64,000 nt of DNA from contig NZ_JARXWN010000005.1 in assembly GCF_029892965.1 (NCBI RefSeq), positions 62,001-126,000 on the forward strand, given 5' to 3'. The notes beneath the pieces were generated by a model. That model was not told where the DNA came from and made no database searches. It was given only the letters and a program-made list of their open reading frames with translations. Both the position numbers and the translations under genes were made by a program. Origin of the DNA: Dysgonomonas sp. PF1-14. GTDB lineage: Bacteria > Bacteroidota > Bacteroidia > Bacteroidales > Dysgonomonadaceae. The first letter of the stretch is position 1; every line of letters begins with the position of its first letter. This document shows positions 28,537-35,980 of this stretch, piece after piece.

Positions 28537-30111
28537 ATGATATACACAGATGTTCTTGTAATAGGTTCGGGTATTTCCGGACTGTCGTACGCGCTGAAAA
28601 TAGCACAACAACGTCCCGATACGCGGATAAGCATTATCACAAAATCGGATGATGAAGAATCGAACACAAAATATGCACAGGGCGGTGTAGCTGTAGTAAC
28701 CGACTTTACAAAAGATAGTTTTGAGAAGCACATCGAAGATACTTTACGTGCCGGAGATGGTATGTGTAAGCGCGAAGCTGTGGAAGTCGTAGTAACTGAA
28801 GGCCCCGAACGCATACGCGAAATGGTAGAGTGGGGAGCTAACTTCGACAAGGACGAAACGCAGCACTACGATCTTGGGCGCGAAGGCGGACATACCGAGA
28901 ATCGTGTGGTACACTACAAGGACATTACCGGAGCCGAAATAGAACGAGCCTTGTTGACAGCGATACAACGGCTCGAGAATGTGGAGCTGTTGAATCATCA
29001 TTATGTCATAGACCTTCTGACCGAACATCAGGTACCCGATGCAGAGTTCGATAAATATAATCTGAACTGTTATGGGGCTTATGTACTGGATATGAAGAAC
29101 CAGAAAATAAAAAAAATGTCTGCAAAGATCACACTGATGGCAACAGGTGGTTGCGGGCATGTATATAAAAATACGACTAATCCGATTATCGCTACCGGAG
29201 ACGGTATCGGGCTGGCACACCGCGCAAAGGCTAAGATCAGCAATATGCAATTTATACAGTTTCATCCCACAGCATTTTACAGTACCATGTCGGGGCAGTT
29301 GCCGTTGATATCTGAAGCTGTAAGAGGGTTCGGTGCAAAATTGCGTACTGCTTCGGGCGAGCCGTTTATGCATAAATATGACGATCGGGAAGAACTTGCC
29401 TCGCGCGATATTGTTGCTCGTGCCATCGACAGTGAAATGAAACAGCGGGGCGACGACTATGTCTGTCTCGATTGCCGCCATCTCGATCAGCGCAAATTCA
29501 TGGAGCATTTCCCGAATATCTACAAGCAATGTAAGGATGCCGGACTGGATATGTTCAAAGATCTGATTCCTGTAGTACCTGCCAGTCATTACCTGTGTGG
29601 AGGTATAGACGTAGACCTGTTCGGGCAAAGTACCATCAAAAATATGTTTGCCGTAGGCGAATGTTCTAACACCGGACTGCATGGAGCTAACAGGTTGGCA
29701 TCGAATTCTCTGTTAGAAGCTCTTGTGTTTGCTCACAGGGCAGCACTAAAAACGGTAGAGCGGCTGACAGAGGATAACTTCAACTATGAACAACTGCACG
29801 CAATACCCGAATGGAATCAGGAAGGAATGAAGGTAAATGACGAAATGGTATTGCTTAACTACCTGCGCAAAGAGCTTCAGAGCCTGATGAGTGACCTTGT
29901 GGGCATCGTACGCAGCAATAGACGTCTGAATCTGGCTAAACAAAAGGAAGAAGAGATATATAAGTCTGTAAAGGAGATTTACAATTTCTCTATCCTGTCT
30001 CCGCAATTGTCGGAACTACGTAACCTCGCCAGTGTTGCATACCTCATTATAACACAAAGTATAGAACAAAACGAGAATAAAGGAACATTTTATAATAAAG
30101 ACCTGAAATGA
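28537..30111 (+). CDS. nadB: L-aspartate oxidase
   Basis: NadB oxidises L-aspartate to iminoaspartate with FAD, feeding NadA. The 524-residue protein begins with the FAD dinucleotide loop VIGSGISGLSYALK. It carries the aspartate-oxidase/fumarate-reductase signatures SNTKYAQGGVAVV, the GGHTENRVVH stretch, and C-terminal GGIDVDLFGQST and HGANRLASNSLLEALVF. Its stop overlaps the nadC start by 4 bp (ATGA). Confidence 0.96.
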   Translation: MIYTDVLVIGSGISGLSYALKIAQQRPDTRISIITKSDDEESNTKYAQGGVAVVTDFTKDSFEKHIEDTLRAGDGMCKREAVEVVVTEGPERIREMVEWGANFDKDETQHYDLGREGGHTENRVVHYKDITGAEIERALLTAIQRLENVELLNHHYVIDLLTEHQVPDAEFDKYNLNCYGAYVLDMKNQKIKKMSAKITLMATGGCGHVYKNTTNPIIATGDGIGLAHRAKAKISNMQFIQFHPTAFYSTMSGQLPLISEAVRGFGAKLRTASGEPFMHKYDDREELASRDIVARAIDSEMKQRGDDYVCLDCRHLDQRKFMEHFPNIYKQCKDAGLDMFKDLIPVVPASHYLCGGIDVDLFGQSTIKNMFAVGECSNTGLHGANRLASNSLLEALVFAHRAALKTVERLTEDNFNYEQLHAIPEWNQEGMKVNDEMVLLNYLRKELQSLMSDLVGIVRSNRRLNLAKQKEEEIYKSVKEIYNFSILSPQLSELRNLASVAYLIITQSIEQNENKGTFYNKDLK

Positions 30112-30974
30112 AAAACAACAGACCATCATACGTGACAGACGAAGCTTTGCAACACTTCGTAAGTGAAGCTATCAGAGAAGACATAGGTGACGGAGATCAC
30201 TCTACACTAGCCAGTGTTCCGGCAGGGCTGAAACAACGAGCACGCTTACTTATAAAGCACGACTGTGTTTTAGCAGGCGTAGAACTTGCTCAGTATATAT
30301 TTCATTTCTACGACAAGTCACTGGAAATAGAAGTGTTCAAGAATGACGGAGATACAGTAAAAGTAGGTGACGTAGCTTTCGTAGTTACCGGATCGGCTCA
30401 GTCAATCCTTACAATGGAACGTCTTGTGCTGAACTGTATGCAACGCATGAGTGGTATTGCCACATATACCCGCCGTATGGTAGACCTGCTTGCCGATACC
30501 AATACCCGCATACTTGATACTCGTAAAACAACGCCGACATTCCGTATGTGTGAGAAATGGGCGGTGCAAATCGGTGGCGGGCAAAATCACCGTTTCGGAT
30601 TGTTCGATATGGTGATGCTGAAAGACAATCATAACGACTATGCCGGAGGTATAACTCCTGCGGTAGAAGCCACAGTAAAATATCTGAAAGAGAAAGGTAA
30701 AGACCTGAAAATAGAAGTGGAAACCCGTAATCTGGAAGAAGTAAAAGAGGCCTTAGCTACTAAGGCGGTAGATATTATTATGCTCGACAATATGTCTCTG
30801 GCAGAAATGTCGGAAGCCGTACATCTTATAAACGGAGCTGCCAAAATAGAAGCTTCGGGGGGAATAACGAAAGAGACTGCTCATAATATAGCAAAAACCG
30901 GAGTAGACTATATCTCCTCCGGCGCTATTATATATTCGGCTCCTAACATAGATCTGAGCCTGAAAGCATTCTGA
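30108..30974 (+). CDS. nadC: Nicotinate-nucleotide pyrophosphorylase (quinolinate phosphoribosyltransferase)
   Basis: NadC converts quinolinate and PRPP to nicotinate mononucleotide, CO2 and PPi. The 288-residue protein carries the family motifs REDIGDGDHST near the N-terminus, the arginine/lysine-rich substrate site LDTRKTTPTFR, HRFGLFDMVMLKDNH, and the C-terminal EASGGIT strand. With nadA and nadB it completes the aspartate-to-NaMN route in one place. Confidence 0.96.
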   Translation: MKNNRPSYVTDEALQHFVSEAIREDIGDGDHSTLASVPAGLKQRARLLIKHDCVLAGVELAQYIFHFYDKSLEIEVFKNDGDTVKVGDVAFVVTGSAQSILTMERLVLNCMQRMSGIATYTRRMVDLLADTNTRILDTRKTTPTFRMCEKWAVQIGGGQNHRFGLFDMVMLKDNHNDYAGGITPAVEATVKYLKEKGKDLKIEVETRNLEEVKEALATKAVDIIMLDNMSLAEMSEAVHLINGAAKIEASGGITKETAHNIAKTGVDYISSGAIIYSAPNIDLSLKAF

Positions 30975-32004: not shown

Positions 32005-34485
32005 TTAGTTGAAACTATTATGTAACTCGGTTAAAGATACTTTAGCATCGCCCAGCATCATAGTCACCTTATCCTTCATTTCGTAGAGCGGATTCGGTAC
32101 GCCGGCATAACCCGGTTTCAGGTCGAAGTTACAGATAATGATATGTTTTGCCTGATCCACGTTCAGTACAGGCATACCGTATATCGGCGTACCTTCGGCA
32201 TCACGCGCAGCAGGATTGAGCACATCGTTCGCACCGATGACTACCACCACATCCGTATCTTTAAACTCGTCATTGATGTTATCCATCTCGTACAACTGAT
32301 CGTAAGGCACATCTGCTTCGGCTAACAATACATTCATGTGTCCGGGCATACGTCCTGCAACAGGATGAATGGCGTATTTTACCTCTGTTCCCTGTGCTTC
32401 GAAACTGTCTGCCAGTTGTCGTACCTGATGTTGCGCCTGTGCCAATGCCATTCCGTAGCCGGGAACGATAATCGCACGCTTGGCTGATTTAAGAATACTG
32501 TTTGTATTTGTATCTTCTTTTTCTACAATCTTTTCAGTATTGTTAACCTGCTGTATAACCTTTGCAACCGATTCTTTAGCATCACCCAGCATCATAGTTA
32601 CCTTATCCTTCATTTCGTAGAGCGGATTCGGTACGCCGGCATAACCCGGTTTCAGGTCGAAGTTACAGATAATGATATGTTTTGCCTGATCCACGTTCAG
32701 TACAGGCATACCATATATCGGTGTGCCTTCGGCATCACGCGCAGCAGGGTTGAGTACATCGTTCGCACCGATGACTACCACCACATCCGTATCTTTAAAC
32801 TCGTCATTGATGTTATCCATTTCGTACAACTGATCGTAAGGCACATCTGCTTCGGCCAGCAATACATTCATGTGTCCAGGCATACGTCCTGCAACAGGAT
32901 GAATGGCATATTTTACCTCTGTTCCCTGTGCTTCGAAACTGTCTGCCAGTTGTCGTACCTGATGCTGTGCCTGTGCCAATGCCATTCCGTAGCCGGGAAC
33001 GATAATCGCACGCTTGGCTGATTTAAGAATACTGTTTGTATTTGTATCTTCTTTTTCTACAATCTTTTCAGTATTGTTAACCTGCTGTATAACCTTTGCA
33101 ACCGATTCTTTAGCATCGCCCAGCATCATAGTTACCTTATCCTTCATTTCGTAGAGCGGATTCGGTACGCCGGCATAACCCGGTTTCAGGTCGAAGTTAC
33201 AGATAATGATATGTTTTGCCTGATCCACGTTCAGTACAGGCATACCATATATCGGTGTACCCTCAGCATCACGCGCAGCAGGGTTGAGTACATCGTTCGC
33301 ACCGATGACTACCACCACATCCGTATCTTTAAACTCGTCATTGATGTTATCCATCTCGTACAACTGATCGTAAGGCACATCTGCTTCGGCCAGCAATACA
33401 TTCATGTGTCCGGGCATACGTCCTGCAACAGGATGAATGGCGTATTTTACTTCTGTTCCCTGTGCTTCGAAACTGTCTGCCAGTTGTCGTACCTGATGTT
33501 GCGCCTGTGCCAATGCCATTCCGTAACCGGGAACGATAATCGCACGCTTGGCTGATTTAAGGATACTTGCTAATGAATTTTCTTCTGTTACGACTGTCTC
33601 TATTACTTTTTCTACAGGTTTGTCAGCCTTAACAGCAACCGGTGCAGCCGTATTACCCATCAGTATAACCATGAGTTTGCGATTCATCGCCCTGCACATT
33701 ATCTGTGTCAGAAGCAATCCCGAAGAACCTACGATACCTCCGATAGCTACTACCAGCAGATCGCCTATCGCCATACCGGCAATAGCAGCAGCTACTCCTG
33801 CCAGTGATGTAAGCAATGATATTGTAATAGGCATATCGGCTCCTCCGACACGAATGGCAAAAGCCAATCCGAAAAGAGAACCGAATACTACAGCAATAGT
33901 GAGTATAAAATAAGGGTTAGCAATAATACTTTGAGACGACCCGATAAAGAATGCAAAAGCGATAGCCGCAACCGATCCGGTGATAGTAACAATCGTAATC
34001 AACTGATGATTTTTCCAGATCACAGGCTTTTGTGGCAGCACTCTGTGTAGTTTGCCGGCTGCAACCATACTGCCTACGAAAGTCACCATACCTACTACAA
34101 CAGCGAGTGTGGCAGTTACATTCACAAAAAGTGGAAACTCGGATGGTTTTACTCCAATATTGATCAGAGTAAGTGCACCGACTATACCTCCTGCCAATCC
34201 GCCCAATCCGTTGAGCATTGCCACTGTCTGCGGCATTTCTATCATCTGCACTTTACGGGCAAGAATAGCTCCGATAATACTTCCTATTAATATAAAGGCA
34301 TAGATAGTAGTGACTTCAAAGATGCGGTAATACAGCAGTGTCACTATAATTCCCACAAACATACAGAAGGACAGGAGAAGATTACCCCGAACAGCCGTAG
34401 TAACCTTACTCATCATAGATATTCCCAGCAATGCCAAAAGGGAGAGGACTCCACAAACGATATAAAAGATTGTTTCCGTCATCAT
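32005..34485 (-). CDS. pntB: NAD(P) transhydrogenase beta subunit with triplicated NADP-binding domain III
   Basis: PntB couples hydride transfer between NADH and NADP+ to proton flow. A usual PntB has about 460 residues: a membrane domain plus one NADP(H)-binding domain III. This product has 826. Residues 1 to about 275 are the membrane domain. The unit SILKSAKRAIIVPGYGMALAQ begins at residues 307, 485 and 663, giving three domain III copies with a period of 178 residues (534 bp). All three have the GYGMA loop, the HPVAGRMPGHMNVLLAEA stretch, VVVVIGANDVLNPAA and GYAGVPNPLY. The 25-residue linker ending copies 1 and 2 (ESVAKVIQQVNN...) is identical; copy 3 ends in a different 11-residue tail. 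DNA copies differ at scattered synonymous sites. In each copy the position of the E. coli Lys-Arg-Ser motif for the NADP 2'-phosphate reads Cys-Asn-Phe. Confidence 0.95.
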   Translation of the reverse strand: MMTETIFYIVCGVLSLLALLGISMMSKVTTAVRGNLLLSFCMFVGIIVTLLYYRIFEVTTIYAFILIGSIIGAILARKVQMIEMPQTVAMLNGLGGLAGGIVGALTLINIGVKPSEFPLFVNVTATLAVVVGMVTFVGSMVAAGKLHRVLPQKPVIWKNHQLITIVTITGSVAAIAFAFFIGSSQSIIANPYFILTIAVVFGSLFGLAFAIRVGGADMPITISLLTSLAGVAAAIAGMAIGDLLVVAIGGIVGSSGLLLTQIMCRAMNRKLMVILMGNTAAPVAVKADKPVEKVIETVVTEENSLASILKSAKRAIIVPGYGMALAQAQHQVRQLADSFEAQGTEVKYAIHPVAGRMPGHMNVLLAEADVPYDQLYEMDNINDEFKDTDVVVVIGANDVLNPAARDAEGTPIYGMPVLNVDQAKHIIICNFDLKPGYAGVPNPLYEMKDKVTMMLGDAKESVAKVIQQVNNTEKIVEKEDTNTNSILKSAKRAIIVPGYGMALAQAQHQVRQLADSFEAQGTEVKYAIHPVAGRMPGHMNVLLAEADVPYDQLYEMDNINDEFKDTDVVVVIGANDVLNPAARDAEGTPIYGMPVLNVDQAKHIIICNFDLKPGYAGVPNPLYEMKDKVTMMLGDAKESVAKVIQQVNNTEKIVEKEDTNTNSILKSAKRAIIVPGYGMALAQAQHQVRQLADSFEAQGTEVKYAIHPVAGRMPGHMNVLLAEADVPYDQLYEMDNINDEFKDTDVVVVIGANDVLNPAARDAEGTPIYGMPVLNVDQAKHIIICNFDLKPGYAGVPNPLYEMKDKVTMMLGDAKVSLTELHNSFN
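32041..33567 (-). repeat. Three tandem in-frame 534-bp repeats in pntB
   Basis: The units are 33567-33034 (copy 1), 33033-32500 (copy 2) and 32499-32041 (copy 3, shorter because it lacks the linker). They encode identical protein sequence over the domain. They differ by single synonymous bases, for example at the ends near 32049, 32583 and 33117 (gcc/acc/gcc context) and near 32179/32713/33247. Confidence 0.95.
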
Positions 34486-34793
34486 TTTTCAGTACTTTTT
34501 TTCTTCGGATTAAACATTCTGAGCATACGGTGGGTAACCCCAAAACCGGCTACTACATTCACTGTAGCCAAAAGAACACCTATACCACCGAATATTTGTC
34601 CGGCGAGCAGCCCTGTACCTCCTGCCTGATATGAATATCCTACCGTAACGATAGCTCCCAGAAGGCATATACCTGCCAAAGCATTCATCCCCGACATTAA
34701 CGGAGTATGCAACAGACTGGGTACATTCTTGATAATGAGATAGCCCACGAATGAGGATACAAGGAAGATCAATATTAAATAAATCGGATTCAT
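34482..34793 (-). CDS. pntAB: NAD(P) transhydrogenase alpha-2 subunit (membrane part)
   Basis: The 103-residue protein has three membrane helices and matches the membrane segment that is fused to domain I in E. coli PntA but separate in three-gene systems. The conserved PLMSGMNALAGI stretch occurs at about 31-42. Its stop overlaps the pntB start (ATGA), implying coupled translation. Confidence 0.93.
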   Translation of the reverse strand: MNPIYLILIFLVSSFVGYLIIKNVPSLLHTPLMSGMNALAGICLLGAIVTVGYSYQAGGTGLLAGQIFGGIGVLLATVNVVAGFGVTHRMLRMFNPKKKSTEK

Positions 34794-34819: not shown

Positions 34820-35980
34820 TTAATTCTTACCCATTGCTTCCAGTGCTCCGGCATGAACTACATTACCGTCTATAGATACCAGAATTGACTTGACAATTTC
34901 GTCAGACATATCGAGTTCTATCTTTCCGTCTTTAGTCAGGTATTTAACCAGATTATATACATTATTGGCAAACATCCATGTAGAGCTGGTAGGCAGCATT
35001 CCCGGAATGTTTTTGATACCTATCAGTGTAACCCCATGTTTCACTTCGGTGCTTCCCGGAGGTGTTATAGAACAGTTTCCCCCCTGATCGATAGATATAT
35101 CTACTACAACCGATCCGTTCGGCATTGTTTTCACCATGTCTTCAGTTAACAGTATAGGAGCTATCTTTCCCGGAACCAGAGCGCTACAGAACACAATGTC
35201 CATATCTTTTATTATTTCGCTCAGTTTCTCCCGCTCTTTGATGATCCATTCTTCCGACAGGCTTTTGGCATATCCTCCTTCAGCTATTGCCAACTCAGCC
35301 GGCACTCCTGTGTCTATCAGTTTTGCACCCAAGCTCATAGCCTGCTCTAAGGCAGCAGGACGAATATCTGTAGCATACGTGATTGCACCCAGACGTTTTG
35401 CCGTTGCCAGAGCTTGTAAACCGCCCACACCTACACCAATGACCAATACTTTAGCCGGAGGAATAGAACCTACAGCTGTGAACATAGGCGGTATAAACTT
35501 AGACATAGCATTAGCAGCCAGAAGAATTCCTTTATATCCGGCACATGTACTCATAGAAGTGAGTGCATCCATATTCTGGGCGCGTGATATACGTGGAACT
35601 CCATCGAGAGTCATAGCAATAATTCCTTTTGCAGCCAGCATTTGTACCATTTCGTGATTAACCGGAGACGCCGGATGTATAAAAGTGATCAGATATTGCC
35701 CCGCGTGCATCAGATCTACTTCATGCTTGTTGTGCGTAGTATTGAACAAAGGTTCTTTTACTTTAAGGATCAAATCGGCTTTTTGAAAAAGCTCTTCGGC
35801 AGAAGTTATAATTTGTGCACCAGCAGCAGTGTAGTCTTCATCAAAATAGAATGATCCTATTCCTGCTTTTTGTTCGATTAAAACTGTAGCCCCGTCAGTA
35901 ACAAACTTTTTTACTGTTTCCGGACTTGCTGCCACGCGTGCTTCGCCAGGCATAATCTCTTTTGGGATTCCAATAATCAT
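34820..35980 (-). CDS. pntAA: NAD(P) transhydrogenase alpha-1 subunit (NAD-binding domain I)
   Basis: The 386-residue soluble protein belongs to the alanine dehydrogenase/PntA family. It opens MIIGIPKEIMPGEARVAASP, carries the arginine/glutamine substrate region RAQNMDALTSMSTCAGYK, and the NAD-binding Rossmann loop GVGVGGLQALATAKRLGA followed by an acidic residue (ATDIRP). It holds NAD(H) and docks on domain III of PntB. First gene of the three-gene operon. Confidence 0.94.
   Translation of the reverse strand: MIIGIPKEIMPGEARVAASPETVKKFVTDGATVLIEQKAGIGSFYFDEDYTAAGAQIITSAEELFQKADLILKVKEPLFNTTHNKHEVDLMHAGQYLITFIHPASPVNHEMVQMLAAKGIIAMTLDGVPRISRAQNMDALTSMSTCAGYKGILLAANAMSKFIPPMFTAVGSIPPAKVLVIGVGVGGLQALATAKRLGAITYATDIRPAALEQAMSLGAKLIDTGVPAELAIAEGGYAKSLSEEWIIKEREKLSEIIKDMDIVFCSALVPGKIAPILLTEDMVKTMPNGSVVVDISIDQGGNCSITPPGSTEVKHGVTLIGIKNIPGMLPTSSTWMFANNVYNLVKYLTKDGKIELDMSDEIVKSILVSIDGNVVHAGALEAMGKN

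Follow-up and report, generated by a model that had tools for sequence, protein, structure and literature searches.

The pnt operon and the tandem domains of PntB

The window analysed here, a stretch of 64,000 nucleotides (nt) from Dysgonomonas sp. PF1-14 (contig NZ_JARXWN010000005.1, positions 62,001 to 126,000), carries on its minus strand an operon of the proton-translocating transhydrogenase type in the order pntAA, pntAB, pntB, the end of pntAB and the start of pntB overlapping by 4 nt. PntAA corresponds to domain I (dI), PntAB and the first part of PntB to the membrane domain II (dII), and the remainder of PntB to the nucleotide-binding domain III (dIII), which is present in three tandem copies. 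The features are given below with their positions in the window and, in parentheses, the evidence, which includes open reading frames (ORFs).

32005..34485, minus strand: PntB, 826 aa, dII plus three tandem dIIIs (ORF, Pfam, AlphaFold)
33616..34485, minus strand: dII part of PntB, 9 transmembrane helices (residue comparison, AlphaFold, structural matches)
33109..33567, minus strand: dIII copy 1 core (aa 307-459)
32575..33033, minus strand: dIII copy 2 core (aa 485-637)
32041..32499, minus strand: dIII copy 3 core (aa 663-815)
33190..33198, minus strand: N430-F431-D432 of copy 1, at the place of the canonical K-R-S (KRS) motif (alignment)
32656..32664, minus strand: N-F-D of copy 2 at the KRS place
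32122..32130, minus strand: N-F-D of copy 3 at the KRS place
34482..34793, minus strand: PntAB (alpha2, membrane part of dII), 103 aa (ORF, Pfam PNTB_4TM)
34820..35980, minus strand: PntAA (dI), 386 aa (ORF, Pfam AlaDh_PNT_N/C, column comparison, model)

The original prediction, made from the DNA alone, had described three in-frame, identical dIIIs with a 534-nt period and intact GYGMA and IGAND loops, and this was confirmed by the ORF, the direct repeat (spacing 534/534 nt) and the comparison of the cores. The 178-residue period includes the linker, which is identical behind copies 1 and 2, and only the tail behind the third core deviates. While the three 153-residue cores are identical at 153/153 positions, with both loops intact in each, their DNA differs pairwise at 12, 12, and 14 of 459 nt; the 19 variable sites fall in 18 codons and are all synonymous. 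The comparison of copies 1 and 2 covers about 375 nonsynonymous and about 108 synonymous sites, so that a silent-only pattern arising by chance is not credible.

PF02233 matches PntB in three stretches, and the protein scores 769 bits on the NCBIfam model of NAD(P) transhydrogenase beta (cut-off 689; three stretches summed). The Pfam model TPP_enzyme_M (PF00205) also matches three stretches above its cut-off (60.5 vs 30.4 bits), which reflects the dIII fold. The AlphaFold model of PntB (mean predicted local distance difference test score, pLDDT, 78; predicted template modelling score, pTM, 0.51) displays nine transmembrane helices, followed by three alpha/beta domains that stand apart and are joined by linkers of low confidence. 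Its 24 best structural matches are transhydrogenase in every case; Thermus dII chains fit it with a template modelling (TM) score of 0.85-0.88 and Rhodospirillum dIII with 0.78-0.87, both on target length.

Occurrence among bacteria

PntB with several dIIIs is a real and widespread architecture, confirmed to be neither unique to this genome nor an artefact. Among 169 dereplicated PntB ORFs gathered from relatives, 63 uncut genes have more than one dIII, namely 33 with two, 24 with three, and 6 with four, in Bacteroidales and Bacillota; the holders include Dysgonomonas hofstadii, Parabacteroides, several Porphyromonas, Hoylesella marshii, and many Bacillota metagenome genomes. The expansion is not confined to one assembly, whereas such a confinement would have refuted the original prediction by its own terms; one to four dIIIs are found in many members of both groups. 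The search for related loci retained the best 80 of 276 relatives, in a ranking that favours repeated dIIIs, and for this reason the proportions of genes with several dIIIs given below rest on two taxonomy-drawn samples. One locus, L101, is a piece of the gene at L005 and was left out of the gene counts, while its four copies are included in the 217 typed copies and its pairs in the substitution medians reported below. In the window's own genus PntB was matched in 3/25 genomes, and in a Bacteroidota-wide sample of 345 genomes in 168, with three dIIIs only in the window's genome and apparently two in one other.

An assembly artefact or a strain-specific duplication can be regarded as very improbable. 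Although the window genome, in which a single PntB was detected, is a draft of 49 contigs, and several relatives' contigs break inside pntB, each copy has silent sites of its own and the longest exact repeat between the copies is 149 nt, as the original prediction had argued from the scattered silent differences. Moreover, contiguous genomes hold the same architecture: two dIIIs in the single-contig genomes G034 and G038, three in the single-contig genome G308, and four in G373 on a contig as long as its genome. In G011, G268, G281, G379, G382, G560, G583, and G694 the matches to PntB are divided between contigs or truncated at the end of one, as expected of unresolved tandem repeats, and drafts may understate the copy number. 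In Porphyromonas gingivicanis the four dIIIs of pntB (L035:3986-7080) are distributed over two ORFs of 464 and 589 aa, which overlap.

Two groups of PntB and the nucleotide-site motif

A tree of dII from 161 genes splits into 46 genes that all have a single dIII (clade I, the canonical form) and 115 with one to four (clade II). The same split separates the dIII motifs: K-R-[SG] is found in 46/46 dIII copies of the first group, at the position of E. coli K424-R425-S426, and N-x-D in 217/217 typed dIII copies of clade II. All 63 genes with several dIIIs belong to clade II, and none of the 82 typed canonical KR-type genes has a second dIII. By parsimony, 18 changes between single and multiple dIIIs are counted, all in the 115-gene group; well-supported branches force 10 of these changes, and as many as three of the 18 could be spurious, the broken genes L035, L141, and L143 having been scored as single-dIII.

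The first taxonomy-drawn sample, with 77 genomes over the cut-off, gave 67 KR-type genes (66 complete, one cut), two untyped fragments, and 8 N-x-D genes (six multiple, one single, and one split with a masked letter). The second, of 42 genomes, gave 6 KR-type genes, all single, 10 broken or unresolved cases, and 26 resolved N-x-D genes, 11 multiple and 15 single (one genome with two single-dIII genes). Over both samples several dIIIs occur in 0/72 KR-type vs 17/34 N-x-D genes (Fisher p=1.2e-10, uncorrected for relatedness), and without the two sample centres, themselves multiple, in 15/32 N-x-D genes (p=1.2e-9, likewise uncorrected). Typed loci were obtained for 10 of the 168 matching genomes of the Bacteroidota-wide sample, all of KR type.

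The dIII fold and most of its motifs are kept in clade II, according to motif columns and structural matches, the GAND loop having Cys in place of Asn in a minority of copies (GACD; N 87%, C 8%). Regarding the replaced motif, K-R-S contacts the 2'-phosphate. Hydrogen-deuterium exchange on the E. coli enzyme assigns the KRS motif to the NADPH site, loops D and E setting the specificity for NADP(H) over NAD(H) (PMC9529548). As far as residues can suggest, N-x-D with its invariant Asp resembles a ribose site of the NAD(H) type. Taken literally, NAD(H) would be used by both dI, which keeps its ribose-binding Asp, and dIII, with no net yield and proton slip alone; proton slip through NAD(H) in dIII is known. 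In that case NADP(H) would have to be held in some different manner, or the reaction would involve a further redox partner.

Regarding dII, the window protein keeps the equivalents of E. coli S139, D213, C260, and R265, with Asn at H91 and Thr at N222; the four equivalents are found in 122, 122, 122, and 113 of 122 clade-II genes, respectively. A lost proton channel is unsupported, S139, D213, and C260 being kept in 122/122. At the N222 position, Thr is found in the window's own subgroup (11/122 clade-II genes) and Asn in 109/122.

Evolution of the copies and their linkers

The ratio of nonsynonymous to synonymous substitution rates (dN/dS) has a median of 0.104 for pairs of dIIIs within a gene at dS <1 (n=85), 0.097 for pairs of single-dIII genes at dS <1 (n=88; widely spread, quartiles 0.045 and 0.43), 0.21 for pairs between multi-copy genes (n=153), and 0.084 for pairs with dS >0.05 (n=132); 31 of the 143 intragene pairs are saturated or exceed 1.5 dS. 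In trees, all copies of a gene form one clade in 30/63 multi-dIII genes, as expected from homogenisation or recent duplication, and in 23 of the other 33 they mix within sets of at most 17 relatives' copies. Judged from these comparisons, the full dIII copies are evidently under purifying selection and often homogenised, and copy number has changed repeatedly; the original prediction had offered purifying selection or gene conversion, and signs of purifying selection and of homogenisation are seen, in dN/dS and in the copy clades, respectively.

Nine Bacillota genes display a different pattern. Their first copies, joined by the middle one of L028, form one clade (support 99) and their last copies another (support 98), and therefore these copies have been kept apart. 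The two sets are told apart by 15 positions, two of them beside the Asp of N-x-D. Over all multi-copy genes, the residue behind this Asp is Arg in 15/61 last copies vs 3/101 others (uncorrected for relatedness).

The linkers between copies measure 15-46 aa (median 25, n=101) and are rich in Ala, Glu, Ser, Thr, and Pro. In any full-length copy at most 4 of 55 near-invariant positions are missing, and degenerate arms were accordingly rejected as a general description, though L024 and L026 have a broken third copy. One gene, L092, has one dIII vs two in L191 and L088 with nearly identical dII, which represents either a recent loss or a collapsed assembly.

Domain I and its resemblance to alanine dehydrogenase

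PntAA combines the RQD-loop residues Q135 and D138 and the ribose-binding Asp205 with residues of L-alanine dehydrogenase (AlaDH) type, namely K75, H102, D298, and N324. The codons of three of them lie as follows.

35756..35758, minus strand: Lys75 of PntAA, aligned with Lys74 of AlaDH 1PJB
35675..35677, minus strand: His102 of PntAA, aligned with His95 of AlaDH 1PJB
35087..35089, minus strand: Asp298 of PntAA, in the AlaDH motif VDxAIDQGG

Q135, D138, and D205 are present in 117/117 clade-II and 45/45 clade-I dI, and a swapped specificity, with dI for NADP, is unsupported (Asp205 in 162/162). K75, H102, D298, and Q299 are found in 117/117 clade-II dI and 15/15 AlaDH vs 0/45 canonical dI; N324 is found in 117/117, 15/15, and 19/45, respectively, and Arg15 is common to all three. 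Judged by its motif, Asp298 is probably the counterpart of Asp270 of the Mycobacterium (Mtb) enzyme. Mtb AlaDH mutated at His96 or at Asp270 is inactive (PMC4691113). Among 113 AlaDH-invariant columns, 48 are kept (in >=90%) in clade II and 18 in clade I, while 54 are kept by <30% of both clades.

On the AlaDH model TIGR00518, PntAA reaches 169-176 bits, below the cut-off of 391.85, and the dI model (pLDDT 94.4) is overall nearest to solved transhydrogenase dI. In a PntA tree rooted on AlaDH, canonical PntA is grouped (support 98) and the branch order of clade II is not resolved, so that clade II may be either ancestral or sister to canonical PntA. A separate AlaDH was found in 9/35 Bacillota holders of clade II vs 150/313 of the rest (p=0.013, uncorrected for relatedness, nine of the 35 holders having broken pnt genes, not all typed). 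The window genome has a separate AlaDH besides pnt; in its genus AlaDH is absent in 2/3 pnt holders, too few to judge whether the two are complementary.

Gene neighbourhood

A conserved neighbourhood was considered and rejected: of four window neighbours, one (a hexosaminidase-like ORF) was matched elsewhere, in L044, among the relatives' loci compared. The ORFs at 28537-30111 and 30108-30974, near pntB on the other strand, resemble nadB and nadC of NAD biosynthesis, and had no match in the relatives' loci compared. The relatives' neighbours are scattered (diaminopimelate (DAP) dehydrogenase, nicotinamidase, EamA transporters, branched-chain aminotransferase, and others), and therefore no substrate can be named from them. 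Directly upstream of pntA, the loci L028, L047, L049, L050, L051, L053, L056, and L057 share a similar ORF; they hold eight of the nine Bacillota genes whose dIII copies have diverged, while L052 starts at the gene itself. NCBIfam identifies this ORF as DAP dehydrogenase in L049, L050, and L053, the three tested. DAP dehydrogenase is an NADPH enzyme. In other loci, the ORF directly upstream of pntA is a nicotinamidase by NCBIfam (L045:1658-2314 and L046:1700-2347) or has an isochorismatase domain by Pfam (L061:1535-2272).

Possible function of the additional domains

In transhydrogenase, dIII flips between dI and dII, the dimer having one up and one down (PMC8551311), and isolated dIII binds NADP(H) with an apparent dissociation constant below nanomolar, the holoenzyme binding far more weakly (PMC5742237). 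The balance tips slightly towards regarding clade II as a divergent proton pump of the transhydrogenase type, in which the tandem dIIIs would be interchangeable swinging carriers with a changed nucleotide chemistry. Each PntB chain would carry one to four dIIIs on flexible linkers, which would take turns at dI for hydride transfer and at dII for the proton gate, so that an arm would be ready at each docking site while another travels and the chance of finding a loaded arm there would be higher. An undocked canonical dIII would act as an NADP(H) trap, and extra canonical arms would lock up NADP(H). With N-x-D and no KRS clamp, a dIII should release and rebind nucleotide more readily off the membrane, this nucleotide probably being NAD(H)-like. 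Multiplicity may be found only in the N-x-D group because loss of the KRS clamp would make extra arms workable.

Several observations weigh against this swinging-carrier model. In the two samples, 17/34 resolved clade-II genes have one dIII; multiplicity is therefore not needed, one arm being sufficient. A single split of the tree underlies the association of KRS loss with multiplicity, the nucleotide preference of clade II is deduced from residues, and the DAP dehydrogenase upstream of pntA hints at NADPH supply in the Bacillota subgroup. Purifying selection on each copy would also be expected if a broken arm merely poisons the enzyme; the third copy is broken in L024 and L026, and G462 has a piece beyond its second copy. 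Finally, whole PntB of E. coli and Thermus fits the window model loosely (TM 0.53-0.56 on target), because domain placement differs, although the domains alone fit well.

The alternatives differ in what they make of the additional arms and of the chemistry. According to the original prediction, a dimer would carry six NADP sites, possibly as an NADP(H) buffer. Such an ordinary NADP(H) transhydrogenase would agree with the conserved dIII fold and motifs, with the PntB score above the beta cut-off, and with the DAP dehydrogenase neighbours of some relatives. It is nevertheless improbable, since KRS is replaced in the three window copies and in all typed copies of the group, which leaves the six NADP sites unsupported and the buffer unproven. 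In addition, PntAA stays under both NCBIfam pntA cut-offs (376 of 383 and 334 of 444.4 bits, with models that also span PntAB), and a few membrane sites look negligible as a buffer next to free pools. It can also be hypothesized that the arms are useless and tolerated, in a constructive-neutral ratchet where recombination between tandem repeats adds and removes dIIIs, flexible linkers allow the extra arms, and the copies stay intact since docking of a dead arm poisons the enzyme. This appears doubtful, even if it would account for the frequent change in copy number, also between such close relatives as L092 and L191 or L088, for the common single-copy members, for the homogenised copies of many genes, and for the broken third copy of two triples. 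Up to four copies are found in separate lineages, a second dIII is absent from all 82 KR-type genes, where first duplications would likewise be expected, and the first and last copies of the nine Bacillota genes form distinct clades with differences beside the N-x-D Asp; these diverged, retained copies speak against a neutral ratchet as the whole story.

With regards to the chemistry, clade II may be a proton-coupled substrate dehydrogenase, a proposal that is compatible with the carrier model and can be held only tentatively. In this proposal dI would be a working AlaDH-like site, and hydride would pass from or to a small substrate via dI-bound NAD(H) to NAD(H) on dIII, and therefore the paradox of no net reaction with NAD(H) on both domains would be resolved. 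The proposal draws on the four AlaDH residues shared by all clade-II dI and absent from canonical dI, on the larger share of AlaDH-invariant columns kept in clade II than in clade I, on the inactivity of the Mtb His96 and Asp270 mutants (PMC4691113), and on the lower frequency of AlaDH among Bacillota holders. Yet many AlaDH-invariant residues are absent from clade II, e.g., the YET segment, PntAA scores far under the AlaDH cut-off, and the overall fold of dI is nearest to that of transhydrogenase. The AlaDH-type residues may be a legacy retained for a different function, the depletion of AlaDH carries the limits stated above, and the window genome holds a separate AlaDH too. More speculative still is the suggestion, drawn from the same residues, that clade II might be a living link between AlaDH and transhydrogenase, with an amino acid/2-oxo acid pair as substrate, NAD(H) in dI, one to four NAD(H)-type dIII arms, and proton flow through dII, the canonical form having arisen by loss of the dI substrate site and gain of KRS.

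Comparison with known systems

The dI, dII, and dIII folds and the RQD loop are those of proton-translocating transhydrogenase (4O9U from T. thermophilus, R. rubrum, E. coli 9L76, ovine 6QTI), the three-subunit layout of the operon is as in T. thermophilus (PMC5742237), and the window dII resembles E. coli PntB in the four residues named above. In contrast to the canonical enzyme, clade II has one to four dIIIs per beta subunit (three in the window), N-x-D for KRS, and AlaDH-type residues in dI. Because it has neither one dIII per beta subunit nor KRS, the window enzyme is a variant of transhydrogenase. Clade-II dI shares K75, H102, D298, Q299, and N324 with L-alanine dehydrogenase (TIGR00518; 1PJB, 2VHW, 8HYH), from which it differs by its RQD loop and membrane partners, by the lack of many AlaDH-invariant residues, and by a score under the family cut-off.

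Tandem lipoyl domains are found in E2p. Tandem acyl-carrier proteins (ACPs) are found in polyunsaturated fatty acid synthases, where productivity rises with the number of ACPs (PMC5067506, PMC3585217). As in both, several near-identical mobile carrier domains are borne on flexible linkers; unlike in both, the proposed carrier of the window enzyme has no covalent cofactor and is a Rossmann domain that binds a nucleotide, as part of a proton pump of the membrane. No tandem dIII, N-x-D dIII, or dehydrogenase-like dI was found in the open-licence literature searched (for some topics in part of the results, subscription papers lying outside), in agreement with the original prediction that no triplicated PntB had been described.

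Significance

The three-domain architecture of transhydrogenase is called universally conserved in a review (PMC5742237), and against this supposedly universal architecture stands a large group in which the number of swinging arms ranges from one to four. Counting arms offers a direct test of how dIII shuttles between dI and dII. Since the NADP motif and dI have changed together, the "NAD(P) transhydrogenase" of many Bacteroidales and Bacillota may run a different, possibly energy-conserving reaction which, if true, would alter the metabolic models of those bacteria.

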